From Azospirillum sp. B510 (GTDB taxonomy: Bacteria; Pseudomonadota; Alphaproteobacteria; Azospirillales; Azospirillaceae), in NCBI RefSeq assembly GCF_000010725.1, contig NC_013855.1, positions 1,344,501 to 1,408,500 of the forward strand: a stretch of DNA of 64,000 nucleotides, written 5' to 3'. Below the pieces are notes generated by a model. The model worked only from the letters and a program-made list of their open reading frames with translations, was not told the origin of the DNA and did no database searches. The position numbers and the translations under genes are program-made. Positions 1,392-14,176 of the stretch are shown here, piece by piece. The first letter of the stretch is position 1, and the number at the start of each line of letters is the position of its first letter.

Positions 1392-3033
1392 GGACGATCA
1401 TCATCGCCATGGCGGCGGCCCCCGCCACCTCGCCGGCATCGTCCATGTTCAGCACGGCGACCGACGCCGGCTTGGTCTCCGGCGCATAGAGGAAGACCAC
1501 CGCCGACACCGTGGTCATGGCGTTGACGAAGAAATAGATGGCGATGTCGAGGATGGCCGGCAGGCAGAGCGGCACCGTCACCCGCAGGAAGGTGGTCCAG
1601 ACCGGCACCTTCAGGCTAGCCGACACCGCTTCGAATTCGGCGTCCAGCTGCTTAAGCGCGGTGACGGCGGTCAGGTGGCTGACCGTGTAGAAATGCGCCA
1701 CCGTCGCCAGCACCAGGATCGCCATGCCGTGATAGAGCCAGCCCAGCGGGTTCCACGGCGCGTTGAAGAAGAAGATGTAGGCCAGCCCCAGCACCATGCC
1801 CGGCACCGCCAGCGGCAGGATCGCCATCAGCCGCACCAGCCCCTTCATCGCCGCGCGGCCGGGCGCCCGCTCCACCAGCCAGGCGCCGGTGAAGACGATG
1901 GCCGTGCCGGCCAGCGCGGTCCAGAAGGCCAGGATCAGGCTGTTGCCATAGCTGCTCCAGCCCGCCGAATCGAACTCGGCGAAATCGTAGTTCGCCAGCG
2001 TCGGCGTCAGGTTGTAGGGCCAGAAGGTGACGATGGAGGCGAATCCCGCCACCGCCAGCAGCCCGAGCAGCAGCCCGCCGACCAGCGCGCAGAACAGCAG
2101 GGCCAGCCGGTCGCCGACCGGGCTCAGACGCGGCTGGAACGGCACCGAGCGGGCGGAGAGCTGCGCCATCTGCCGGCGCTGGCCGATCCAGTCGGCGATG
2201 AAGGCCAGCACCGCCGGCAGCAGCAGGACGATGCCGACCACCGCCCCCATGCCGAAATTCTGCAAGCCGACCACCTGCTTGTAGACGTCGGTCGCCAGCA
2301 TGTTGGTGGAGCCGCCGATCACCTTGGGCACGCCGAAATCGGTGACCACCAGCGTGAACACCACGAAGATGGCGGAGACCAGGCCATAGCGCACGCCGGG
2401 CAGCGTGATGGTCACGAAGCGTTTCCAGGCGCCGGCGCCCAGCGCCTCCGCCGCCTCGTAAAGCCGGGCGTCGGAGGTCGAGAGCGCCACGGTCAGGATC
2501 ATCACCGCATGGGGGAAGGCATAGAAGACCTCGCCCATCACGATGCCGATCGGGCCATAGACGCTCTCGCCCATCAGCAGGCCGCGCAGGATGCCCTTGT
2601 TGCCGAACAGATACACCAGCGCGATGGCCGGCAGCAGCGACGGCGCCAGCAGCGGAATCTGCGCCAGCAGCCGGAACAGCCCCTTCCCCGCCATATGGGT
2701 GCGGGTCAGGCAGAAGGCGTAGAGGAAGGCCAGCGTCACCGTGATGGCCGTGGTCAGCAAAGACAGCGACAGGCTGTTGACCACCGAGCGTCGCAGCGTC
2801 GGCGTCTCCAGGAAGGCGGCGAAATTGGCGAGCCCGACGAAGGCGCCGTCGCGGTCATAGACGCTGCGCAGGAACAGCGCGCCGAGCGGCAGCAGGACGA
2901 ACAGCGCCAGGAACAGGGCGATGCCGCCCATCCCCATCCCGAACAGCCAGCGCTCGCCCGTCTCCACCGGCCGGCCGGACTGCCGCGGGATGAAGAGGGA
3001 GAGCTTCGGCGCGGCCAACTTCAGCACGCTCAT
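1309..3033 (-). CDS. 2-aminoethylphosphonate ABC transporter, fused two-domain permease
   Basis: A 574-residue inner-membrane permease with two binding-protein-dependent transport domains in one chain, like the fused permease (PhnU2 type) of AEP importers and Fe3+/spermidine-type permeases. Many hydrophobic segments are visible, and each half carries an EAA-like loop: AAEALGAGAWKRFVTITLPG in the first and FEAVSASLKVPVWTTFLRV in the second. The start is ATG 3033, which overlaps the stop of the ATPase gene (ATGA), so the two are translationally coupled. A longer upstream open frame exists but would overlap the ATPase gene widely. The 3' end overlaps the LysR gene tail to tail. Confidence 0.88.
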   Translation of the reverse strand: MSVLKLAAPKLSLFIPRQSGRPVETGERWLFGMGMGGIALFLALFVLLPLGALFLRSVYDRDGAFVGLANFAAFLETPTLRRSVVNSLSLSLLTTAITVTLAFLYAFCLTRTHMAGKGLFRLLAQIPLLAPSLLPAIALVYLFGNKGILRGLLMGESVYGPIGIVMGEVFYAFPHAVMILTVALSTSDARLYEAAEALGAGAWKRFVTITLPGVRYGLVSAIFVVFTLVVTDFGVPKVIGGSTNMLATDVYKQVVGLQNFGMGAVVGIVLLLPAVLAFIADWIGQRRQMAQLSARSVPFQPRLSPVGDRLALLFCALVGGLLLGLLAVAGFASIVTFWPYNLTPTLANYDFAEFDSAGWSSYGNSLILAFWTALAGTAIVFTGAWLVERAPGRAAMKGLVRLMAILPLAVPGMVLGLAYIFFFNAPWNPLGWLYHGMAILVLATVAHFYTVSHLTAVTALKQLDAEFEAVSASLKVPVWTTFLRVTVPLCLPAILDIAIYFFVNAMTTVSAVVFLYAPETKPASVAVLNMDDAGEVAGAAAMAMMIVLTSALVRALHALLSRALRERTQAWRRR

Positions 3034-4112
3034 CGCACCGCCTCGAACACGCGCAGCCGCTCGCGCGGCAGCGTCACCGCCAGCCGGCGGCCCGGATCCA
3101 GCGACAGGTCGCGCACCAGATTGGCCGACAGGTCGGCGGTGACGCGGACGTCGCCCAGCCCGTCGGCGGCCAGCCGGGCGCGGTGGAAGGGGCCGAGGAA
3201 CTCCAGGCTTTCGATCACCGCGTCCAGCGTGTTGGCGCCGCCGGCCGCGCGCACCTGCACATCCTCCGGCCGCAGGCAGACGGTGACGGCGGCACCGGGT
3301 GCCGTGGTCGCCAGATGGTCGCCGTCGAAGCCGCACTCGAAGCCATGCTCGCCCAGCCGCACCCGCCCCGGCGCCTCCAGCACGCCGGAGAGGAAATTCA
3401 TCGCCCCGACGAAATCGGCGACGAAGGGGCTCGCCGGCCGGTGATAGACCTCGTCGGGCGTGCCGACCTGCTCGATCAGGCCGTTGTTCATCACGACGAT
3501 GCGGTCGGCCATGGTCAGCGCCTCCTCCTGGTCATGGGTGACCATGATGGTGGTGATGCCGAGCCGGCGGTGCAGGTCGCGGATCTGGCGGCGCAGATGC
3601 AGCCGCACCCGCGCGTCCAGCGCCGACAGCGGCTCGTCCAGCAGAAGCAGGCCGGGCGACGGCGCCAGCGCGCGGGCCAGCGCCACCCGCTGCTGTTGCC
3701 CGCCGGACAGTTGGGCCGGATATTTCGGGCCGGCGTCGGGCAGGCCGACCAGCGTGAGAAGTTCCTCCACCCGCGCCCGCTCGGCGACCCGGCCCAGCTT
3801 CAGGCCGTAGGCGACGTTGCGATGCACGGTCAGGTTCGGGAACAGGGCGTAGGATTGGAAGACGATGCCGTAGTCGCGCGCCGACGGCGGCAGCCGCGAC
3901 ACGTCGCGGTCGCCCAGCCACACCGTCCCGCCGCTCTGCGGATCCAGCCCGGCGATCACCCGCAGCAGCGTGGTCTTGCCGCAGCCGGACGGCCCGAGGA
4001 AGCAGACGAACTCGCCGCGCCGGATGTCGAGCGACACGCCCTTCAGCGCGGTGAAGGTCCCGAAACTCTTGACGATGGACTCCAGGCGGAGATGGGGCGC
4101 GGTGGCGGTCAT
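3030..4112 (-). CDS. phnT: 2-aminoethylphosphonate ABC transporter ATP-binding protein
   Basis: A 360-residue ABC ATPase that powers AEP import. Walker A is GPSGCGKTT, the signature is LSGGQQQRVALARAL, Walker B is LLLLDEPLSALD, and the switch histidine is in MVTHDQEEA. A C-terminal TOBE-like domain (about residues 240-355) is typical of the PotA/FbpC group. I chose ATG 4112, just before the conserved start LRLESIVKSFG. ATG 4136 would add eight residues. A hairpin separates it from phnS upstream, and the permease gene overlaps its stop codon. Confidence 0.88.
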   Translation of the reverse strand: MTATAPHLRLESIVKSFGTFTALKGVSLDIRRGEFVCFLGPSGCGKTTLLRVIAGLDPQSGGTVWLGDRDVSRLPPSARDYGIVFQSYALFPNLTVHRNVAYGLKLGRVAERARVEELLTLVGLPDAGPKYPAQLSGGQQQRVALARALAPSPGLLLLDEPLSALDARVRLHLRRQIRDLHRRLGITTIMVTHDQEEALTMADRIVVMNNGLIEQVGTPDEVYHRPASPFVADFVGAMNFLSGVLEAPGRVRLGEHGFECGFDGDHLATTAPGAAVTVCLRPEDVQVRAAGGANTLDAVIESLEFLGPFHRARLAADGLGDVRVTADLSANLVRDLSLDPGRRLAVTLPRERLRVFEAVR

Positions 4113-4147
4113 CGGCGGCGTGTCCCGGCAAGACATGAAGGACAACG

Positions 4148-4184
4148 AAAAGGGCGGGCGGGTGCGCGAAGGCTCCCGCCCGCC
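4148..4184 (-). terminator. Intercistronic hairpin between phnS and phnT
   Basis: On the minus strand, 10-base arms GGCGGGCGGG (4184-4175) and CCCGCCCGCC (4162-4153) enclose a 12-base loop, followed by C and TTTT. It looks like a weak intrinsic terminator or an mRNA 3' stabiliser. Such an element after a binding-protein gene normally keeps that protein in excess over the membrane components. Confidence 0.6.
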
Positions 4185-4208
4185 GGCGCGATCAGGCTTT
4201 TCCCGGCC

Positions 4209-5249
4209 TCAGCTCTTCGGCTCGGACTTGGCGCCGTAACGCTTCTCCCAGGTCGCCAGGATGGCGTCGCGGTTGGTCGCGGCCCAGACGAAGTCGTTGG
4301 TCTTGTTCATCGCCGCTTCCGCGTTCTTCGGATAGTTCGGCGTGTCCTTGGTCACGCCGGGATGGGCGGTGACCTGATAGAAGTTCACATATTCCTCATT
4401 CGCCTTGCGGCTGGCCGCCCAGTCGGCGAGCGCCTTCGCGGCCTCGGCCTTGTGGGTGCCCTTGACGATGGCGGTCGCCTCCATCTCCCAGCCCACCCCT
4501 TCGGAGGCGAGGATCACGTCGATCGGCGCACCCTTGGTCTTCTGCTGGGCGCCGGTGTATTCGATCGAGATGCCGATGGGGTATTCGCCGGACGCCGCCA
4601 TCTTGCAGGGCTTGGAGCCCGAATGGGTGTAGAGCGCGACATTGTCGTTCAGCTTGTCCATGTAGGACCAGCCCTTGTCGGCCCCCATGGTCTGGAGCCA
4701 GCCCGACACGGCGAGGAAGCCGGTGCCCGAGGAGGCCGGGTTCGGCATGACGATCTGGCCCTTGTATTCCGGCTTCAGCAGGTCGGCCCAGGAGGTCGGC
4801 CTCGGCAGCTTCTTCTTCTCGGCCTCGACCGTGTTGAAGCAGATGGCGGCCATCCAGGCATCCATGCCGACCCAGGCCGGCGGGGTCTTGGCATCGCGGA
4901 AGCCGGCCTTGAGAGCCTCGGCGCCCTTGGGCTGGTAGGGCAGCAGCATGCCCTGGGCATCGAGGATCATCAGGCTGGAGGCGGCGAGGCCCCACACCAC
5001 GTCGGCCTTGGGATTGTCCTTCTCGGCCAGCAGCTTGGCGGTGACGACGCCGGTGGAATCACGCACCCATTCGATCTCGATGCCGGGATTGTCGGCCTCG
5101 AACGCCTTCTTGTAGGGGGCGAGCTGTTCATTCTCCAGCGCGGTGTAGACGGTCAGGCGGGTGGCGGCCCCGGCCTCAGTGGCGGATGCGGCGGCGGCCA
5201 GCAGCGCAAGCGCACAAGTCCCGAGCAGAATGGTGCGGCGGATCATCAT
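4209..5249 (-). CDS. phnS: 2-aminoethylphosphonate ABC transporter substrate-binding protein
   Basis: A 346-residue periplasmic binding protein, the first gene of the importer operon. Residues 1-28 form a Sec signal peptide (MMIRR, hydrophobic core, ASATEAGA). The mature part begins TRLTVYTALENEQLAPYKKA, the fold of the Fe3+/phosphonate extracellular solute-binding family. The start is ATG 5249 with GGGAG just upstream; ATG 5246 is the next codon. Specificity for AEP is inferred from phnW and the LysR gene nearby, not from binding residues. The 187-base gap to 5437 is the likely promoter region. Confidence 0.85.
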   Translation of the reverse strand: MMIRRTILLGTCALALLAAAASATEAGAATRLTVYTALENEQLAPYKKAFEADNPGIEIEWVRDSTGVVTAKLLAEKDNPKADVVWGLAASSLMILDAQGMLLPYQPKGAEALKAGFRDAKTPPAWVGMDAWMAAICFNTVEAEKKKLPRPTSWADLLKPEYKGQIVMPNPASSGTGFLAVSGWLQTMGADKGWSYMDKLNDNVALYTHSGSKPCKMAASGEYPIGISIEYTGAQQKTKGAPIDVILASEGVGWEMEATAIVKGTHKAEAAKALADWAASRKANEEYVNFYQVTAHPGVTKDTPNYPKNAEAAMNKTNDFVWAATNRDAILATWEKRYGAKSEPKS

Positions 5250-5436
5250 GGGGGCTCCCGTGGTCCAAAGGGCGGTATGCGGTGGCGTCCTGGAACAGCG
5301 TGTTTTCCGCGGGCAGCGGTCGGTCGCCGCCGCCCCGGCACGCCAGAGTCTCTACGCCGAAGCGCCCCGTCGCTCCCGTTAAGCTTTGGTGACTCCCCAA
5401 GTGATGACGGCCGGTGATGAAATTCCCGTCTTGCGG

Positions 5437-8064
5437 TCAGGCGGCCGTCAGCAGCGCCTCGGCATCGGCCACGGACAATGGACGGGCGAACAGGTAGCCC
5501 TGGGCATAGTCGCAGCCGATCCGGGTCACGACCGCCCGCTCCTCCTCGGTCTCGATGCCTTCGGCGACGACCTCCAGCCCGATGCGGTGGGCGAGGTCGA
5601 CGATGCCGCGCAACAGGGATTCCTGCCGGGGATCGCTGCCGAGCGCGCTGATGAAGCTCTTGTCGATCTTCATGACGTCGAAGGGCAGCCGGCTGAGATG
5701 CGACAGCGAGGAATAGCCGGTGCCGAAATCATCCATGCACAGGGCGATGCCCAGCGCATGGAAGCGTTCCAGAATGGCGCGGGCCTGGTCATGGTCGGTG
5801 ACGGTCATGCTTTCCGTCACCTCGATCTTCAGCCCGTCGGCGCGGCCATCGGCGAGGAAATCGAGCATGTCGTCGACATAGCGTTCGTCCCACATCTGGC
5901 GGGCCGACAGATTGACGTTGACGGTCAAGGCGCCCCCGCCCGCCATGCCGCGCCAACGGGCGAGCTGCGCCACCGCCCGTTCCAGCACATGGCGGCCGAG
6001 CGGCAGGATCTGGCCGGTCTCCTCGGCGATCGGGATGAACTGGGCCGGGCTGACGAGGCCGAGGTCGGGATGGCGCCAACGCACCAGCGCCTCGAAGCCG
6101 GTGAGCCGTCCATCGGACAGCGCCACGATCGGCTGATAGACTAGGAAGATGTCCCCGGCCTCCAGCGACGGGGTCAGGTCGCGTTGCAGGCGGCTGCGGA
6201 TCAGGATCGCTTCGCGCAGGGAGGCGTCGAACAACACGGTGCGGCCCTTGCCATGCTCCTTGGCGCGGTAGAGCGCGATGTCGGCGTCGCGCAGCAGCCC
6301 CTCCGGATCGTCGCTGGTCCCGTCATCGACCGCCAGCCCGATGCTGAGCCCGACCCGAAGCTCCGTGCCGCCAGCGCCGAGCGGGCGCTGGAAGGCGGAC
6401 TCCAGCGCCCGCGCGCGGGCGATCGCCACCTCGCGGCCGGCGGGCACGACGACGACGAACTCGTCGCCCCCCAGCCGCGCCACGAATTCCCCCGGCTCCA
6501 GCGCCGCCGCGACCCGCTCCGCCGTCGCGATCAGAATGCGGTCGCCGACGGCGTGGCCGAGACTGTCGTTGACGACCTTGAAGCCGTCGAGATCAAGGAA
6601 CAGCAGAGCCAGATCGCCCTGCCCGCCATCCGATACCGCCTGCCGGTCATGCAGCCAGCGGACCAGGAAGGCGCGGTTGGGCAGCCCGGTCAGGAAATCA
6701 TGGGTGGCCTGATGGACCAGCCGCGCCTCGTAGGATTTGCGGTCGCTGATGTCGGCGGCGGAGCCGGCGAGCCGCGCCACCCGCCCGCCCGGATCGGCGG
6801 CGACGATGCCATGCAGATGAACCCAGCCGACATGCTCCTCCCGCATCCGGTCCGGCGGCAGGACACGGAACTCCACATCGAAGCTGGCGCCGTCCACCGA
6901 CCGCTCGCCCTGGCGGATGGCGGACAGCACGGCGTGCCGGTCGTCGGAATGGATATGCGCCAGCAGGGCGGCGAGACCGGGCTCGCCACCGTCGGCGGGC
7001 AGATGAAGCATCTGGCGCAGCCGGGGCGACAGGTACAGCTCGCCACTGTCCAGATCCCAGTCCCACAAGCCGTCATTGGTGGCGGCGGCGGCCATGGCAT
7101 AGCGGCGCTCGCTCTCGCCCAGCCGGCGGCTCTTCTCCTCGATGGCGGCGAACAGGCCGCGCAGGGCGACCCGGCTGTCCTCCAGGCTGCGGCCGAGCAG
7201 GCCCAACTCGTCCTGGCGGAACCCGGCGAAGCTGGCCCCCGCCCCTCTACCCTTGCTCCAGCCTTGAAAAGGCCGGTCGAGGTCGCGGCGGGCCAGCCGG
7301 CGGGCATCCTCCACCAGCCGGCCGAGCGGGCCGACGATGCGGCTGCGGGTGAACCAGACCGCCGCGCCGGCCAGTCCCAGCACCAGCACGGCGATCATGC
7401 CGCCGCCGACCGCCATCAGCCGTTGAAGGGCCTCGATATCGTCCAGCGTGGCGGCGGTCAGCCGGGCGCGCTGCGCGCTCAAATGGCTGTTCAGCGCCGC
7501 CAGCCCCTTCACCGCGTCGCGGCGGCAGGCGTCGAAGGCGTCCGCGGGTATGGCCGCCGCCGGATCCTGCATCTGCACCTGGATGGCGTCGAGGAAGGCG
7601 GCGATGGCGGTGATGGCCTTGGCCTCGTCCTCGCCGGGGGTGACGATGTCGCGGTAGATCTCCAGATTGGCCCGCGACAGCGACAAGGCCCGGTCGAGCG
7701 CCGCGTGATCGGCACCGCCGTTCTGCACCCCCTCGCGGTAACGGTCGATGACGCCGCCGAGACCAAGATGCCCGCGCAACTCCGACAGCGCGTCGGACTT
7801 GGTGGCGGCCTGGAGGTCATAGTCGCGCCAGCCGTCGGCCACCGCGTCCATGCCGCGCATCAGTTGCAGCCCGACCGCCAGCATCGCCGCCAGACAAACG
7901 ACCAGCGCCGCCGCCAGCAGCAGGGCCGAGCGCGCGATGGTCAGGGTGCGGCGCCCCGCTTTGCCGCCGGCCCCGGAGACGGGTCCACCGGAAACGGGAC
8001 CGGGCATGGCATTGGGCGCCGTGCCGGGCATGGCCCCGGCGTCCTCGTTGACGATGTCGGTCAC
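5437..8064 (-). CDS. Membrane GGDEF-EAL protein with PAS domain
   Basis: An 875-residue c-di-GMP enzyme. In order: TM1 (about 40-64), a periplasmic sensor of ~150 residues, TM2 (about 215-240), a HAMP-like linker, a PAS domain (about 325-440), GGDEF and EAL. GGDEF is intact at residues 532-536 (RLGGDEF), but the RxxD inhibitory site five residues before it is absent (EPGE). EAL is intact at 658-660, with DDFGTG and KIDKSFI loops. Both synthesis and breakdown of c-di-GMP are therefore possible. It starts 33 bases after the chemoreceptor gene and shares that protein's sensor motif, so it is probably the last gene of the bufferin operon. Confidence 0.9.
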   Translation of the reverse strand: MTDIVNEDAGAMPGTAPNAMPGPVSGGPVSGAGGKAGRRTLTIARSALLLAAALVVCLAAMLAVGLQLMRGMDAVADGWRDYDLQAATKSDALSELRGHLGLGGVIDRYREGVQNGGADHAALDRALSLSRANLEIYRDIVTPGEDEAKAITAIAAFLDAIQVQMQDPAAAIPADAFDACRRDAVKGLAALNSHLSAQRARLTAATLDDIEALQRLMAVGGGMIAVLVLGLAGAAVWFTRSRIVGPLGRLVEDARRLARRDLDRPFQGWSKGRGAGASFAGFRQDELGLLGRSLEDSRVALRGLFAAIEEKSRRLGESERRYAMAAAATNDGLWDWDLDSGELYLSPRLRQMLHLPADGGEPGLAALLAHIHSDDRHAVLSAIRQGERSVDGASFDVEFRVLPPDRMREEHVGWVHLHGIVAADPGGRVARLAGSAADISDRKSYEARLVHQATHDFLTGLPNRAFLVRWLHDRQAVSDGGQGDLALLFLDLDGFKVVNDSLGHAVGDRILIATAERVAAALEPGEFVARLGGDEFVVVVPAGREVAIARARALESAFQRPLGAGGTELRVGLSIGLAVDDGTSDDPEGLLRDADIALYRAKEHGKGRTVLFDASLREAILIRSRLQRDLTPSLEAGDIFLVYQPIVALSDGRLTGFEALVRWRHPDLGLVSPAQFIPIAEETGQILPLGRHVLERAVAQLARWRGMAGGGALTVNVNLSARQMWDERYVDDMLDFLADGRADGLKIEVTESMTVTDHDQARAILERFHALGIALCMDDFGTGYSSLSHLSRLPFDVMKIDKSFISALGSDPRQESLLRGIVDLAHRIGLEVVAEGIETEEERAVVTRIGCDYAQGYLFARPLSVADAEALLTAA

Positions 8065-8097
8065 GCCGGCCTTCCCTTTTCCCCGGACCCGTGGAAA

Positions 8098-9825
8098 TCA
8101 CGCGCGCAGCGCCTGCGAGAAGCTGTGAGAGGCGCCTTGAAGCCGCTCGGTCTCGCTGCCCAGCGATTGTGCGGCGGAAAACATGTCCTCCGCAACCCTG
8201 CCCGCCTGCTCGGCGGCCTGGGCGACCTCGGAGATGGCGGCGCTGACCGCGCCGGCCGCACCCGCGGTCTCCTGGATGTTGCGGGCGATCTCCCGCGTCG
8301 CCTCGTCCTGCTGGGTGACGGCGTCGGCGATCTCCCGCGCCATCTGGCGGACCTGTTCCAGGCTGCCGCCGATGCCCTGGATGGCGTCGACCGCGCCATC
8401 GGTGGCGCTGCGGATCGTCGCGATCTGCTGGGTGATGTCCTCGGTCGCCCGCGCGGTCTGGTTGGCGAGATTCTTGACCTCCTGAGCCACCACGGCGAAG
8501 CCCTTGCCCGCCTCCCCCGCCCGTGCCGCCTCGATGGTGGCGTTCAGCGCCAGCAGGTTGGTCTGGCTGGCGATGGCGTTGATCAGCCCGACCACCTCGC
8601 CGATGCGCTGCACCGCCTCGGCCAGGCTGGCGACGGTGGCCGACGAGCGGTCGGCCTGCTCGACCGCCGCCGTGGTCATGGCGACGGAGCCGCGCACCCG
8701 CTGCCCGATCCCGGCGATGGAGGCGGACAATTCCTCGGTGGCGGCGGCGACCGCCTGGACGGTGCCGGCGGTGCGGGCGGCGGCGGCGGAGACCTCCTGC
8801 GTGCTGCCGATGGTCCGGCCGGAGGAGTGCGCCAGATCCTGGCCGGTGCGGTGCAGCGTGGCGGCCCGGTCGGCGAGCGCGGCGGCCAGCGCGCCGATCT
8901 CCGCCTCGAAGGCCCGGAGATTACGCTCCAGCGCCTCCTGACGCTGGCGCTCCCGCTCCGCTTCGGCCCGCTCGCGGTCGCCGGCCGCGCGCAGCCGGAC
9001 CAGCCCGTCGCGGAACACGCGGACGGTCCCGGCCATGGCGCCGATCTCGTCGCGGTGACCGACCGACGGCACATCGCTTTCCAGGTCGCCGCCGGCCAGC
9101 CGCTCCATGGCGGCGGCGAGCCGGGCCAGGGGATGGACGATGCGGCGATGGGTGAACCACAGGAACAGCCCGGCGATGGCGACCAGCAGCACCAGCGCGA
9201 CGCCGCCACCGGTCATCACCGTACCGCCGAGCGTGGCGATGCCCTGGCGGTTGGCCTCGCCGAGCGCCGCACGGCTCCGCGTCAGCTCTCCGTTCAGCGT
9301 CCGCATGGCCGCCACCGCCGGTGCGGTGTCGAGCGCCGTACTGCGGACCAGCTGGTCGAGCGGGGTATGGGCCGCCACCCCGGCCTCGGCCTCCCTCAGC
9401 TTGGCGTCGAGCTGCGCCAGCGTCGCGGCGACGCTGTCGAGCGCGCTCGCCTCGGCCGCGGTCAGCTCGCCGGCATAGCGGTAGACCTCCAGATTGGCGG
9501 TGGCCGATTTCAGGCTCTGCCGCGTCTCGGCGGCGCGGGCCGGATCGCCGGTCAGCAGATAGTCGCCGAAGCGGTGGATCACCCCGCCGAACCCCAGCGC
9601 GCCGCGCAGATCCGACAGCGCGTCGGCCTTGGCGGCCGCCCCCAGGTCATAGGCGTTCCAGCGTTCGTCCACCTGTTGGATGCCCTGCACGGTGACGACG
9701 CTGACCGCCAGCACCAGCACCAGCACGGCGATCAGGCCGGACGACAGCAGCCAGCCGAGCTGGGCGATCCGCCGCTGTCCGGGCACCGGCGGACTCCCGG
9801 AGATGGTGGCATGCGGGGCGGTCAT
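8098..9825 (-). CDS. Methyl-accepting chemotaxis protein in the bufferin operon
   Basis: A 575-residue transmembrane chemoreceptor with TM1 (about 22-46), a periplasmic helical sensor, TM2 (about 203-226), HAMP, and a cytoplasmic signalling domain with the hairpin tip [20 protein letters not shown]. The sensor carries [19 protein letters not shown], closely matched in the adjacent GGDEF-EAL protein. The start is ATG 9825, which overlaps the DoxX stop (ATGA). A much longer in-frame open frame reaches upstream through doxX but is not coding. Co-translation with bufferin genes suggests a ligand linked to copper or redox stress; this is inference. Confidence 0.9.
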
Positions 9826-10328
9826 GGACGATCTCCGGTTTGACGGCGGTTGATGCAAAGGAGCCAATGGTCGAGCGACAGCCGTCCGCCGCCGCGGACG
9901 ATCAGACCGGCGAGCAGCAGCATCCAGAAATAATGCTGCGGATTGCTGAAGGCCGGATTTTCGGCGCCCAGCACGAACTGGATCACCAGCGCCATCGCCA
10001 GCAGCGGCAGCGCCGCCAGCCGCGTCGCCAGCCCCAGGACCAGCAGGACCGGCATGGTCAGCTCGGTGGCGGCGGCAAGCAGCGCCGCGGCGTCCGGCGG
10101 CAGCAGCGGCACCCGGTATTCCTCCTGGAACAGGAAGACGGTCGCCGGCCAGTCGCCGATCTTCTGCAAGCCGGAGCGGAAGAAGATCGGCGCCATCGTC
10201 AGCCGGACCGCGAGGTCGAACAGCGGTGCGGCATGGCGGTCGAGCCACCCGGCGATGCGGTCGCGAGCATCCAGCCCATGCCGCAGCCAAACGCATGGCG
10301 GCCCGAAGCTTGCGGGCGATGTCGTCAT
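9822..10328 (-). CDS. DoxX-family membrane protein of the bufferin cluster
   Basis: A 168-residue protein with about four membrane segments. [20 protein letters not shown] and the later [16 protein letters not shown] mark the DoxX family. DoxX-like proteins are regular fourth members of DUF2282/DUF692/DUF2063 clusters, where a role in redox or electron delivery at the membrane is suspected but unproven. The start is ATG 10328; its ATGA overlaps the bufC stop, and its own stop overlaps the chemoreceptor start, so it is coupled on both sides. The open frame upstream of this ATG is arginine-rich shadow. Confidence 0.85.
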
Positions 10329-11164
10329 GGATCGACCTCTTCGGTTCGGGTGACGGGGGGCTGCCGGTCCAGCGCGAATCCGGCCAGCAAGCGGTTCCGC
10401 AGCAGCAGGGCGAGCAGGGATTGAAGGTCGGCACCGGCCGCGGCCTCGTCGTCGGCCGCCTCGGCCAAAGTGGCGCCGGCCAGCAGCCCGGCCGCGAGCG
10501 CGCCGTCGGCGGCGGTCAGCCGGGCGCAACGCACCTCGCCACCCCCCTCCTCGGCGCCCTCCTCATCGCCTTCCCCGGCGGGACTGCGGCCGACCAGCAC
10601 CGCTTCCGGCAGAGCCAGCGGGACGGCGGCGGCGTCCTTCCACAGCGCATGGATGGTCCAGCCGCTCCGCACCAGCCGCAGCGACGGATGGGGAACCAGC
10701 CGCAGGGCGCCGGCCTGCTCCGGCGGAATCGCCGAAAGCCGCGCGAGGTCGAGCGGTTCGGCGTCGGCGGCGAACAGGGCCTCGTGCATCGCCCAGTCGA
10801 GCCGGGCGAGATCGGACGCCCAAGGGGGAAGGCCGTCGGGTGGCGTCCCCGCCACCGCCTCCAGCCCGTCGAGCCAGTCGGCGAAGCCGGCGCCATAGCT
10901 CCACAGCATCGGCAGGCGGGGCGGAACCTCCACCGCGAAGCGGCAGGCGAGCGCGGTGAAGCGCTCCTCGCCCAGGGCGCGGCGCAGGGTCGGATGGGCA
11001 TTGCCGAGGACGGCGGCCAGCGATCCCACCACCGTGTTGCGGTAGACCGCCAGCCGCCCGGCCGGCAGATCGGTCCGCAACGCCCTGGCGACCGCCGGTT
11101 CGCCCCGCAGCAGGAAGGCGGCGAAGTCGCGCTGGAGGCGCGCCAGTTCGGCGTCAGCCGGCAT
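10325..11164 (-). CDS. bufC: Bufferin maturation partner BufC (DUF2063)
   Basis: A 279-residue protein with the DUF2063 N-terminal domain: [14 protein letters not shown], then [20 protein letters not shown]. In bufferin and other MNIO systems this partner is thought to bring the precursor peptide to the DUF692 enzyme. The C-terminal half ([20 protein letters not shown] onward) is the usual second domain. A Gly/Glu-rich stretch near residues 200-212 looks like a linker. The start is ATG 11164, 11 bases inside the end of bufB, and it ends in an ATGA overlap with doxX. Confidence 0.87.
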
Positions 11165-12071
11165 GGCGGTTCTCCCGCACTTCGCTCCGGCGCGTCCGCG
11201 TGTTCAGAAGTCGCTGCGCCCGCGCCGCCTCATGCAGCAGGCCGTCGAGCGGCGGCAGGTCGTTGTCCCATTCGATCAGCACCGGACGGGGACCGATGCG
11301 CTCCAGCACATCGGCGTAGAGCGCCATCACGGCGTCGCCGACGGCGCTGCCATGATCGTCGATCAGCAGCTCCTCGCCGTCGACCGTCATGCGGACGTGA
11401 CCGGCCAGATGCAGTTCGCCGACCGCATCGGCGGGAATGGCATCGAGCCATGCCGTCCGCTCGAAACCGAGATTGACCGACGAGACATACAGATTGTTGA
11501 CGTCCAACAGCAGCCCGCAACCGGTGCGCGCCGCCAGTTCGGCCAGGAATTCGCCTTCCGGAATGGCGCTGTCGGCGAAGGCGACGCAGGCCGCCGGGTT
11601 TTCGACCAGGATGCGCCGGCCGAAGGCGTCCTGGGCGTGGTCGATGTTGCGGCGGACCCGGTCCAGGCTGGCCTCGGTGTAGGGAAGCGGCAGCAGATCG
11701 TTGAGATAGGCGGTGTCGGCGATGCTCCAGGACAGATGCTCGGAGATCAGCCCCGGCTCCAGCCGGTCGTAAAGCGCCCGCAGCCGCATCAGATGGTCAG
11801 GGTCGAGACCGCCGGCGCTGCCCAGCGACAGGCCGACACCGTGGCAACTGACCGGCAGGTCATGCCGGACCCGCAGGATGCCGGCCAACCGCGGCCCGCC
11901 CGGAACCAGATAATTCTCGGGATGAATCTCGACCCAGGGGATCGGGCAACCGGCCGCGACGAGCGCCTCCCGATGCGGCTCGCGCAGGCCGATGCCGGCG
12001 GCGACCGGCACCGGCCGGACCGGGACGGCGGACGGCCGGGCGAGCGTGGAGGGAGACGCCGTCACGGCCAT
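11154..12071 (-). CDS. bufB: Bufferin-modifying multinuclear iron oxygenase BufB (DUF692)
   Basis: A 305-residue DUF692/MNIO enzyme, a TIM-barrel iron oxygenase that oxidises cysteines of a peptide; in bufferins the products are thiooxazoles. Expected metal and active-site motifs are present in order: GIGLREPH, WVEIHPENY, CHGVGLSLGS, ISEHLSW, ILVENP, LLLDVNNLYVSSVN, GELHLAGH and IDDHGSAV. The length is typical. ATG 12071 lies four bases after the precursor gene stop. The first ~25 residues (Pro/Val-rich) are unlike the family core, and an internal start is possible. The neighbours bufA and bufC leave little doubt about its role. Confidence 0.92.
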   Translation of the reverse strand: MAVTASPSTLARPSAVPVRPVPVAAGIGLREPHREALVAAGCPIPWVEIHPENYLVPGGPRLAGILRVRHDLPVSCHGVGLSLGSAGGLDPDHLMRLRALYDRLEPGLISEHLSWSIADTAYLNDLLPLPYTEASLDRVRRNIDHAQDAFGRRILVENPAACVAFADSAIPEGEFLAELAARTGCGLLLDVNNLYVSSVNLGFERTAWLDAIPADAVGELHLAGHVRMTVDGEELLIDDHGSAVGDAVMALYADVLERIGPRPVLIEWDNDLPPLDGLLHEAARAQRLLNTRTRRSEVRENRHAG

Positions 12072-12075
12072 CGCC

Positions 12076-12366
12076 TTACGCCTTCTTCTTCGTGTTGGCG
12101 CCTTCGAACGGCTTCAGCGACCCCATTTCCGTGGTGCAGGTGCCGGCCTTGACCAGCTTCCAGTCGCCGCCGTCATAGGTCAGGTTGGTGTTGCCGGCGC
12201 AGGAATGCAGGCCCTTGGCATGGGCGCAGCCATTCTCTCCCGGCTTGGAGATGCCATAGCATTTCTCCATGTTGGACTGCGCTGCGGCCGGGCCGGCCAT
12301 CAGCGTCAGGGCGCCGGCCAGGGCGCCGGCGATGGGGAGCAGGGCCAAGGTCTTGGGGGCGGTCAT
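12076..12366 (-). CDS. bufA: Bufferin precursor peptide BufA (DUF2282)
   Basis: A 96-residue secreted precursor. Residues 1-29 are a Sec signal peptide (hydrophobic core LALLPIAGALAGALTLMAG, then PAAAQS). The mature part has four cysteines at 36, 47, 56 and 77 (KCYG, NGCAHA, HSCAG, GTCTTE), the DUF2282 pattern. Bufferins of this type bind and buffer copper in the periplasm after BufB and BufC convert cysteines. The tail ends in Lys-Lys-Lys-Ala. ATG 12366 has GAGGA upstream; an earlier in-frame start lacks a signal-peptide layout. It sits 51 bases after the peroxiredoxin gene. Confidence 0.93.
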   Translation of the reverse strand: MTAPKTLALLPIAGALAGALTLMAGPAAAQSNMEKCYGISKPGENGCAHAKGLHSCAGNTNLTYDGGDWKLVKAGTCTTEMGSLKPFEGANTKKKA

Positions 12367-12417
12367 GGTTCGGTTCCTCTCATGTGGAAGGGCTCTGTGT
12401 GGAATGGCCGGCAACGG

Positions 12418-13083
12418 TCAGGCGGCCGGCACGCGGTCGTGCAGCAGGTCGACGAGCGCCTGCGGCTCCGGGCGTTGGGTGAAGTCGGCGTCGATGGCGG
12501 CGAAGCGGACGACGCCGCTGGGCGACAGCAGATAGGTCGCCGGGATCGGCAGATGCCAGGGCTCGCCGGGCGGACGGCCCTGGCGGGCGTTGAGGTCCAG
12601 GCCGCAGCCGCGATAGACGTCGCAAAGCTCGTCCGGCACGCGGTAGATGAGGCCATAGCTGCGGGCCACGGTGGCACCCTGGTCGGACAGGATGTCGAAA
12701 TCGAGCGCGTTGCGCTCCGCCAGCGTCAGGCTGTGGTCCGGCAGCTCCGGCGACACGGCGACCAACCGGGCGCCGCCGGCGGTCAGCTGCGGCAGCGCCA
12801 GTTGCATGGACCTGAGCTGGGCGCAACAATAAGGACACCATTCGCCCCGGTAGAACAGCAGCACGACCGGTCCCGCCTCCAACGTCTCATAGAGCGACAC
12901 CGTGCGACCGAGCTGGTTCGGCAGAGCGAAGTCGGGGGCCTGGAGACCGGGGCGCAACGCCCCCAGCTCGACACCGCGCGCCTTCAGATCGGCGATGACC
13001 CGGTCCATCGTCGCCAACACCGCCGGAGGCATGGTCTTTCCGGCCTGCGCCCGGATGTTGCGGAGTTGGCGTTGAAGACGCAT
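12418..13083 (-). CDS. AhpC/TSA-family peroxiredoxin
   Basis: A 221-residue peroxiredoxin-like protein with the thioredoxin fold and the redox motif WCPYC (Cys83 and Cys86), plus cysteines in DELCDVYRGCG. Family members reduce peroxides with thiols. There is no signal peptide, so it is cytoplasmic. The start is ATG 13083, where the conserved MRLQRQLRNIRAQ begins; a longer frame reading through the LysR gene region is not coding. It is the first gene of the bufferin operon and divergent from a LysR gene, which fits an oxidative or metal stress response. Confidence 0.87.
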   Translation of the reverse strand: MRLQRQLRNIRAQAGKTMPPAVLATMDRVIADLKARGVELGALRPGLQAPDFALPNQLGRTVSLYETLEAGPVVLLFYRGEWCPYCCAQLRSMQLALPQLTAGGARLVAVSPELPDHSLTLAERNALDFDILSDQGATVARSYGLIYRVPDELCDVYRGCGLDLNARQGRPPGEPWHLPIPATYLLSPSGVVRFAAIDADFTQRPEPQALVDLLHDRVPAA

Positions 13084-13228: not shown

Positions 13229-14176
13229 ATGGACCGTCTGGACGACCTGACCGTGTTGGTGGAGGTGGTGGACAGCGGCAGCCTGTCGGCGGCGGCGGAG
13301 CGGCTCGGCCTGTCGGCATCGGCGATCAGCCGGCGGATCGCCCAGATGGAGAACCGGCTCGGCACCCGTCTGCTGGCGCGCACCACCCGGCGGATCGCGC
13401 TGACCGACGCCGGCGCCACCTTCTGCCTGCGGGCCCGCGCCATCCTGGCGGCGTTGGACGAGGCGGAGCAGTCGCTGACCGAGACCGGCGAGGAGCCGCG
13501 CGGCACGCTGCGCGTCACCATGCCGGTGATGTTCGGCCAGATGCGGGTGGCGCCGCTGCTTCCCTCCTACCTGCGCCGCCATCCCGGCGTTTCACTGGAG
13601 GTCAGTCTGAGCGACCGCGTCCAGCGGCTGGTCGACGAGGGGCTCGATCTGGCGATCCGGACCGGACGGCTGGCCGATTCCACCCTGATCGCCCGCCGCC
13701 TGCGGCCGTTGCGCCGCTCCGTGGTGGCCAGCCCCGATTATCTGGAACGGCGCGGCGTGCCACGGTCCCCGGCCGATCTCGCCCGCCACGACTGCCTGAC
13801 GCTGCTGTCCGGCTCCGGCCGTCCGGAATGGGAATTCCTGGTGGGGGAGCGGCGCGAGGTCCTGCGTCCGGCCGGTGGTTTCCAGGCCGACAACCTGTGG
13901 ATGCTGCGCCATGCCGCGGTGGGCGGGCTGGGTCTGGCGCGGCTCGCCGACTTCATTGTCGAGGAGGACATCCGCGCCGGCCGCCTCGTCGCCGTCCTGA
14001 CCGACCTGGAAGTCATGGACGAGGCCATCCACGCCGTCTATCCGGCGACCCGCCATGTCTCGCCGAAGGTCCGCAGCTTCATCGAGCATCTGCTGGCCGG
14101 TCTGAACGGCCAGGACGCCACCGGGCCGGCCGACGGGCCGACCAAAGGCCCGGCAGCCACGGCCAAGACATCATAG
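13229..14176 (+). CDS. LysR-type regulator divergent from the bufferin operon
   Basis: A 315-residue LysR-family regulator. The N-terminal helix-turn-helix (about 1-60, with LSAAAERLGLSASAISRRI) and recognition region RLGTRLLARTTRRIALTDAG belong to the group that includes CrgA, AaeR and DmlR. The effector domain follows. ATG 13229 has GGGGGGAAGAA before it; upstream in-frame starts lack this. Target genes are inferred from the divergent layout with the peroxiredoxin gene. The C-terminus is Thr/Pro/Gly-rich and variable. Confidence 0.85.
   Translation: MDRLDDLTVLVEVVDSGSLSAAAERLGLSASAISRRIAQMENRLGTRLLARTTRRIALTDAGATFCLRARAILAALDEAEQSLTETGEEPRGTLRVTMPVMFGQMRVAPLLPSYLRRHPGVSLEVSLSDRVQRLVDEGLDLAIRTGRLADSTLIARRLRPLRRSVVASPDYLERRGVPRSPADLARHDCLTLLSGSGRPEWEFLVGERREVLRPAGGFQADNLWMLRHAAVGGLGLARLADFIVEEDIRAGRLVAVLTDLEVMDEAIHAVYPATRHVSPKVRSFIEHLLAGLNGQDATGPADGPTKGPAATAKTS

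Follow-up and report, generated by a model that had tools for sequence, protein, structure and literature searches.

Why should the genes for a copper-binding peptide be followed, without a break, by genes for a chemoreceptor and a cyclic di-GMP (c-di-GMP) enzyme? The question is raised by a 64,000-nucleotide stretch of Azospirillum sp. B510 (contig NC_013855.1, positions 1,344,501 to 1,408,500; hereafter the window), in which an operon for a bufferin, a copper-binding ribosomally synthesized and post-translationally modified peptide (RiPP), extends into genes for a methyl-accepting chemotaxis protein (MCP) and a GGDEF-EAL protein. We find that the genes for the copper-binding peptide, a swimming receptor and an attachment-signal enzyme form one block in Azospirillum and a few relatives. 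This block is a real, conserved, accessory operon in which a pair of related sensors joins the bufferin pathway to taxis and c-di-GMP, and metal protection appears to be coupled to behaviour.

Gene order and identities

Seven genes form an unbroken run on the minus strand, as read from the sequence: peroxiredoxin, bufA, bufB, bufC, doxX, MCP and GGDEF-EAL. The operon, its sensor regions and the divergent regulator are given below in window coordinates, with family scores in bits and cut-offs in brackets.

13229..14176, plus strand: LysR-family regulator, divergent from the operon; Pfam LysR_substrate 155.6 bits, HTH_1 76.8 bits
13084..13228, no strand: LysR-peroxiredoxin divergent control region with a conserved dyad-like sequence (conserved by eye)
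12418..13083, minus strand: peroxiredoxin-like protein (AhpC/TSA), first gene of the operon; PF00578 (AhpC-TSA) 92.6 bits (26)
12076..12366, minus strand, ATG start: bufA, DUF2282 bufferin (Buf1-type) precursor; PF10048 63.5 bits (22.4)
11154..12071, minus strand: bufB, MNIO bufferin maturase; NCBIfam NF050167 349.5 bits (310), MbnB_TglH_ChrH 320 (25)
10325..11164, minus strand: bufC, DUF2063 partner protein; PF09836 76.1 bits (27.2)
9822..10328, minus strand: doxX; PF07681 (DoxX) 60.4 bits (23.6)
8098..9825, minus strand: transmembrane chemoreceptor MCP, sensor-HAMP-MCP signal; PF00015 114 bits (34.6), PF00672 HAMP 47.3 (25)
9121..9771, minus strand: sensor region of the MCP, two transmembrane helices and a periplasmic four-helix bundle, homologous to the GGDEF-EAL sensor
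5437..8064, minus strand, GTG start: sensor-HAMP-(weak PAS)-GGDEF-EAL protein; GGDEF 123.9 bits (23.8), EAL 251.8 (31.3)
7315..7941, minus strand: sensor region of the GGDEF-EAL protein, paralogue of the MCP sensor (37% identity, 199 residues)

The window thus holds the genes that mark a Buf1 cluster: a DUF2282 precursor, a BufB-family MNIO maturase, a DUF2063 partner and DoxX. By eye, BufA has four Cys residues downstream of an apparent signal peptide or hydrophobic N-terminus. It was rejected as a BufA2 (19.7 bits against a cut-off of 60) and is of the Buf1/DUF2282 kind. DoxX and BufC score under the NCBIfam cut-offs for HvfX and HvfC, respectively.

The genes are tightly packed. Gaps of 51 and 4 bases separate peroxiredoxin from bufA and bufA from bufB, bufB and bufC overlap by 11 bases, bufC-doxX and doxX-MCP are each joined by an ATGA overlap, and 33 bases lie between the MCP and GGDEF-EAL genes. 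The junctions that an earlier note on this DNA gave, from bufA to GGDEF/EAL, are right in every case, and its identities from bufA to GGDEF/EAL, with the leading peroxiredoxin, are borne out by the Pfam and NCBIfam matches; what its account of the operon lacked was the divergent LysR gene and the homology of the two receptor sensors. No terminator-like site was found in any junction on the operon strand. A consensus search returned no sigma-70 promoters and is uninformative at this locus. The seven genes are probably co-transcribed.

By eye, the control region between LysR and peroxiredoxin looks strongly conserved between the window and 12 orthologous upstream regions, and may contain a putative LysR site through which LysR would control the operon. 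Divergent LysR orthologues stand beside peroxiredoxin in 12 Azospirillum loci, and outside this genus in L072, L099 and L094.

Twin sensors on the MCP and the GGDEF-EAL protein

The MCP and the GGDEF-EAL protein share a homologous N-terminal region, 37% identical over 199 residues (E 5e-24). In the B510 genome this sensor domain occurs in only the two genes of the operon, the next four matches having E-values of 0.07 or worse. Since only these two genes carry the homologous domain, the operon provides two outputs on sister sensors.

No Pfam family covers the sensor regions above its cut-off, and no clear sequence relative was found in the PDB, where one prefoldin entry matched at E 0.03. PF02203 (TarH) matches two of 13 sensors weakly, with a best E of 0.01. 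An AlphaFold2 model of the MCP sensor (predicted local distance difference test score of 87.8) shows a predicted Tar/NarQ-like four-helix bundle, and such matches to helical bundles are unspecific. The MCP is predicted to be of the membrane type, with long helices at both ends of the bundle, hydrophobic flanks and the sensor N-terminal of HAMP, a topology read from the model and the flanks.

Among the 23 sensors, no Cys, His or Met is invariant, which leaves direct copper sensing without support. A motif reads GG-x-I-H in most MCP copies and GG-V-x-D in most GGDEF-EAL copies. Of 10 MCP sensors, 9 retain the His with which the second helix starts; 11 of 11 distant relatives have it too, and the 13 aligned GGDEF-EAL sensors all carry Asp or Asn in its place. 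A Cys is common to the seven Azospirillum GGDEF-EAL sensors aligned and absent from the other 16.

The output domains are conserved in their signalling and catalytic motifs. The hairpin-tip sequence of the MCP is intact in the window and its pattern is identical in 13 of 15 clade MCPs scanned, being unmatched in L099 and in L158, where the MCP is interrupted. The GGDEF, EAL, DDFGTG and EGxET motifs are present in all 18 GGDEF-EAL copies scanned (window plus 17 orthologues), the N motif in 17 and the KID pattern in 14; the window reads MKIDKSF, outside this pattern. No RxxD inhibition site was seen before GGDEF in the GGDEF-EAL protein. Ratios of non-synonymous to synonymous substitution (dN/dS) of 0.20-0.37 for the MCP and GGDEF-EAL genes (four comparisons each), next to 0.21-0.26 for bufB, indicate that both receptors are under purifying selection.

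Conservation of the block in Azospirillaceae

We searched 82 Azospirillaceae genomes with the sensor, and 22 of them had a match at E 1e-6 or better. The LysR-peroxiredoxin-bufABC-doxX-MCP block is found in 13 of the 82, all Azospirillum and including the window (G000, G014, G019, G021, G022, G023, G024, G025, G030, G031, G035, G041 and G045); in G021 it is split across two contig ends and presumably continuous. A strain-specific oddity is thereby ruled out. The GGDEF-EAL gene follows the MCP in 12 of the 13 and is missing in Azospirillum sp. B506 (G030). The B506 operon (L090) ends after the MCP; in the stretch from about 11714 on, the next long open reading frame is GntR-like by eye and lies on the opposite strand, with other metabolic genes beyond it. 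In G019 (L158, G019:C4:72000-91000), the MCP is interrupted and its frame broken at about 9650-9770, where 35 residues identical to the EAL domain of the window lie inside the MCP coding region, reflecting either gene conversion or an assembly fault.

The junctions are conserved as well. The 4-base gap between bufA and bufB is found in 13 of 13 loci and the 11-base overlap of bufB and bufC in 12 of 12. The 4-base overlaps recur in 12 of 13 loci for bufC-doxX and in 11 of 13 for doxX-MCP, with -16 and +2 in the others. The gap from peroxiredoxin to bufA spans 36-73 bases across the 13 Azospirillum loci, and that from MCP to GGDEF-EAL 16-52 bases in 11 of 12 loci, with 411 in G019. The arrangement is not due to chance, since it recurs across species.

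Comparison of the flanks, mostly 2.5 kb on each side, indicates that the block behaves as a unit that stays while its surroundings change. The DNA past GGDEF-EAL and past LysR is common only to small groups of relatives, and the flanks of the window match no other locus except in G023, over a 630-base ABC-transporter piece. A 426-kb plasmid, typed as mobilizable, carries the block in A. oryzae KACC 14407, with toxin-antitoxin and recombinase genes close by. All 22 sensor genomes hold bufB somewhere, versus 23 of 60 sensor-less Azospirillaceae, a comparison whose p value cannot be read literally because these genomes are related.

Directly downstream of the operon in the window (3030-5249, minus strand) lie genes for an ABC transporter ATPase and a solute-binding protein. 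This stretch is probably a separate unit, since among the other loci only A. oleiclasticum (G023) matches it, over the 630 bases. The B510 genome also has a second, divergent MNIO gene (L002, G000:C1:898693-899424; 85 bits to PF05114), and matches to bufA, bufC and doxX are absent from the 17 kb around it (L201).

Reduced forms and other signalling genes at bufferin operons

The linkage extends in reduced form to other Rhodospirillales. Two metagenome-assembled genomes (MAGs) of this order, G049 and G050, have bufABC and then sensor-GGDEF-EAL with no MCP, and the G050 locus shows neither peroxiredoxin nor doxX. A Telmatospirillum MAG (L099) has peroxiredoxin-bufABC-doxX-MCP and no GGDEF-EAL. 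The sensor clade is represented in 20 genomes, comprising 19 of the 22 Azospirillaceae matches plus L099; the count leaves out G055, G056 and G062, weak matches (E 2e-13 to 3e-7) that belong to a wider sensor family. Across the 20, the sensor stands beside bufABC in 16 and beside peroxiredoxin in 16. The earlier note had asked for linkage outside this strain, and the 13 Azospirillum genomes with their overlapping frames and varied contexts supply it. Its term 'obligate' is too strong for a coupling that lacks GGDEF-EAL in B506, an intact MCP in G019 and one or other receptor in the three MAGs above, and that is undone in the Azospirillaceae MAG and the three Azospirillum genomes weighed below, where the receptors are apart from buf genes.

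Signalling genes have also joined other bufferin operons of the family. Three Azospirillum genomes with a lone GGDEF-EAL gene (G012, G017, G042) have another bufA-bufB-bufC-doxX operon that ends in an MCP. Its bufC-doxX and doxX-MCP overlaps are four bases each in G042 (L172), and a LysR gene, 39-41% identical, lies upstream in L172 and L200 and was not found in L177. That the sensor of this second MCP might be a distant copy of the first is not supported (hhalign probability 0.4%). In G052 (L175, G052:C6:7000-24000; 1737-9088), bufABC-doxX is followed by a same-strand AhpC/TSA gene, a gene for a small protein that looks secreted (by eye it resembles plastocyanin, though Pfam does not name it so) and HAMP-GGDEF-EAL. 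These recurrences suggest that the joining of signalling genes to the bufferin operon was selected for in the family. The G052 neighbourhood also includes a beta-barrel-like gene, and its make-up differs from that of the main block. MCP genes lie upstream of two further bufferin operons, in L167 (G048) at 5825-6859 and in L176 (G017:C162) at about 5523-6788; in L176, thioredoxin-like and CcdA/DsbD-like genes (by eye) stand between the MCP and the bufferin operon.

Base rates around bufB

We compared these counts with bufB loci elsewhere, using 60 loci from the class outside the family, which were hand-picked from a score-ranked list with some short contigs skipped and are not a random sample (three have less than 3 kb of downstream DNA), and eight loci, also not random, from other classes. 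On the same strand within 3 kb of bufB, an MCP was found in 0/60 and 0/8 of these loci, and GGDEF/EAL in 0/60, 0/8 and 0/40 sensor-less loci of the family. Receptors as a generic feature of bufferin operons are thus ruled out, with 0/68 such neighbours outside the family; on wider criteria, L216 (in the class) has a GGDEF gene within 3 kb on the opposite strand and L222 an MCP within 5 kb. Among the sensor-less family loci, an MCP lies within 3 kb on the same strand in 5/40, three being the second MCP and the other two the upstream MCPs of L167 and L176. The figure at loci with both sensor and bufB is 12/14, a set selected by the sensor search and no independent test. Peroxiredoxin, on the same strand within 3 kb, accompanies 13/14 sensor-and-bufB loci and 1/40 sensor-less family loci (L175, by profile search); outside the family it is found in 0/60 on the same strand, 2/60 on the opposite strand and 0/8 in the other classes.

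Origin of the sensor pair and the wider sensor family

The tree comprises 34 sensors, 23 from the clade (five without adjacent bufABC) and 11 distant ones; L086, L087 and the G-handle copies were omitted, either as near-duplicates or because the search had not retrieved them. A branch with support 98/97 separates the clade from the distant sensors, and all 13 GGDEF-EAL sensors nest within the MCP copies as a single clade (98/96). The GGDEF-EAL sensor thus derives from an MCP-type sensor. The simplest reading is that the MCP was ancestral and that its sensor would later have been copied onto the GGDEF-EAL enzyme, with losses thereafter; the root is unsure, given long branches among the distant sensors.

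The wider sensor domain, which is not in Pfam, was found in 27 of 385 Alphaproteobacteria sampled. It is attached to MCP, GGDEF, GGDEF-EAL and kinase outputs, and no buf gene was found in the 27 stretches examined. Tandem double copies of the domain occur in L076-L078, L137 and L139-L141 (G055, G056, G405, G365, G228, G359); outputs of these proteins include MCP and MCP-PilZ, and related single copies carry the motif GYGG-x-IH-x-x-KNYVLR.

A proposed role for the operon

We propose, with a probability of about one half, that this is a LysR-controlled stress operon joining copper and oxidant protection to motility and c-di-GMP. The protective layer would be the peroxiredoxin and bufABC-doxX, the bufferin pathway; studied bufferins suggest by analogy that this pathway may buffer periplasmic copper. 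The behavioural layer would be the two membrane receptors, whose sensors share one origin, the MCP feeding the chemotaxis kinase and the GGDEF-EAL protein making or breaking c-di-GMP. Made together with the protective proteins, the receptors could render a stressed cell responsive to an accompanying periplasmic signal, and the response would adjust swimming and attachment. We infer the copper function, the ligand and the direction of this response; directly bound copper ions are a less likely signal than a small molecule, a redox product or possibly a protein partner.

This proposal draws on the overlaps conserved across species, on homologous sensors limited to two genes in the genome, on a block that stays despite changing flanks, on the peroxiredoxin linkage, on the divergent LysR gene within and beyond Azospirillum, on the second, unrelated MCP on another buf operon, on the bufferin and GGDEF-EAL neighbourhood of G052, on the sensor and GGDEF-EAL clades of the tree, and on the dN/dS ratios of both receptor genes. 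Several observations weigh against it. The Azospirillaceae MAG G057 (L067/L094) has LysR, peroxiredoxin, MCP and GGDEF-EAL without bufABC there, a different buf operon lying elsewhere in its genome. G012, G017 and G042 have sensor-GGDEF-EAL away from buf and peroxiredoxin. By genome, the wider-family sensor and bufB are not significantly associated (15/27 with the sensor vs 134/358 without, Fisher p 0.07). With Asp or Asn in place of His in the GGDEF-EAL sensors, the receptors may differ in the signal that they read, and no expression or copper data for the operon were found in the literature searched.

A doubtful but possible alternative is that the cue for LysR and for the two receptors is a small molecule from the environment, such as a plant or soil aromatic or quinone, with copper a side issue; it is equally doubtful that the bufferin and peroxiredoxin would be merely co-induced as protection against the redox stress of such a compound. 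The predicted bundle resembles the small-molecule sensors Tar, Tsr, PcaY, McpS and NarQ, although a chance arrangement of helices gives four-helix bundles many fold matches. Peroxiredoxin accompanies the sensor as constantly as bufABC does, G057 keeps the regulator, peroxiredoxin and both receptors without bufABC, and the wider family drives diverse outputs with no buf gene nearby; yet the clade itself stands beside bufABC in 16/20 genomes, and an MCP with another sensor also sits on a buf operon, which points to the bufferin itself. Direct periplasmic sensing of copper, or of copper-loaded or mature bufferin, by the receptors, with metal or peptide thereby steering motility and attachment, seems to us unlikely. 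The genetic linkage is consistent with it, as are fold matches to four-helix sensors that work with partner proteins (LytS with XylFII, QseE with QseG), and the His of the MCP sensors and the Cys of the Azospirillum GGDEF-EAL sensors leave room for a metal site specific to one subgroup. However, no Cys, His or Met is invariant, the His is shared with the distant relatives that have no buf linkage and is absent from the 13 GGDEF-EAL copies, four genomes have receptors with no bufA next to them, and the helical-bundle matches are unspecific. The earlier suggestion that copper or the peptide is the signal is unproven: besides the lack of an invariant Cys, His or Met, the wider family is not beside buf, and peroxiredoxin equals bufABC in constancy.

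We regard as more speculative still, and rather improbable, the specific version in which what both sensors recognize in the periplasm is bufferin, mature or loaded with copper, or the loss of it. It is just as improbable that, within this version, the change of His to Asp after GG has retuned the GGDEF-EAL sensor, such that one peptide sets two thresholds, for swimming and for attachment. Were bufferin recognized in this way, a self-made metal buffer would double as a behavioural signal. Least probable of all, to the point of being nearly discounted, is that the receptor genes are passengers on a mobile block with no functional tie to the bufferin genes. The block does occur in several contexts and on a plasmid, in a genus whose genomes carry many MCP genes. 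Nine Azospirillum genomes are reported to encode 29 to 41 GGDEF/EAL proteins (PMC5845226). Against this stand the overlapping doxX-MCP frames in 11/13 loci, purifying selection on both receptors, the recurrence of buf-MCP coupling with another sensor and the 0/68 same-strand neighbours outside the family.

The stress operon that we favour predicts that metal and oxidant protection, taxis and c-di-GMP are switched on jointly in Azospirillum, a root-associated genus. Bufferins are a large new class of copper-binding RiPPs, for which the operon offers a direct genetic handle, and the natural sensor pair, one His and one Asp version, is useful for finding the ligand of the wider family.

Comparison with known systems

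We found no account in the open-licence PMC literature that ties bufferin clusters to behaviour. Buf1 clusters have a core of precursor, MNIO, DUF2063 and DoxX, together with sigma factor and anti-sigma genes, and further conserved genes at extremely low proportions (Antoine et al., PMC12452194). The window has the same four core genes and a DUF2282 precursor with four Cys residues but adds a peroxiredoxin in front, two sensor-sharing receptors behind and a divergent LysR gene. The main text of PMC12452194 mentions no chemotaxis, chemoreceptor, methyl-accepting, GGDEF, diguanylate or peroxiredoxin, and the accessible part of PMC13097082 no chemotaxis, methyl-accepting, GGDEF, Azospirillum or peroxiredoxin. 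The GGDEF/EAL survey cited above covered A. oryzae A2P, a carrier of the block, with no mention of DUF692 in the part available (PMC5845226). CdgB is likewise a GGDEF-EAL enzyme with sensory input in Azospirillum, but it has an MHYT membrane sensor, and no buf context is mentioned in the accessible text (PMC9683572).

The predicted fold of the sensor resembles the four-helix bundles of the Tar, Tsr, NarQ and PcaY types, but the sensor has no Pfam or PDB sequence match above the cut-off and has a GG motif of its own. A precedent for the proposed stress operon comes from Caulobacter crescentus, where copper taxis requires a chemoreceptor, McpR, and copper-generated reactive oxygen species (PMC10579534). 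Oxidants are part of the McpR signal there; McpR, however, is cytoplasmic and uses C75 and H99, whereas the window MCP is predicted to sit in the membrane with its bundle in the periplasm, and neither Cys nor His is invariant in its type of sensor. In Pseudomonas putida, CsoR-CheA coordinates copper resistance with chemotaxis, as we propose for the window operon, but does so through a cytoplasmic repressor that binds CheA and not through receptors encoded in the resistance operon (PMC11978298).

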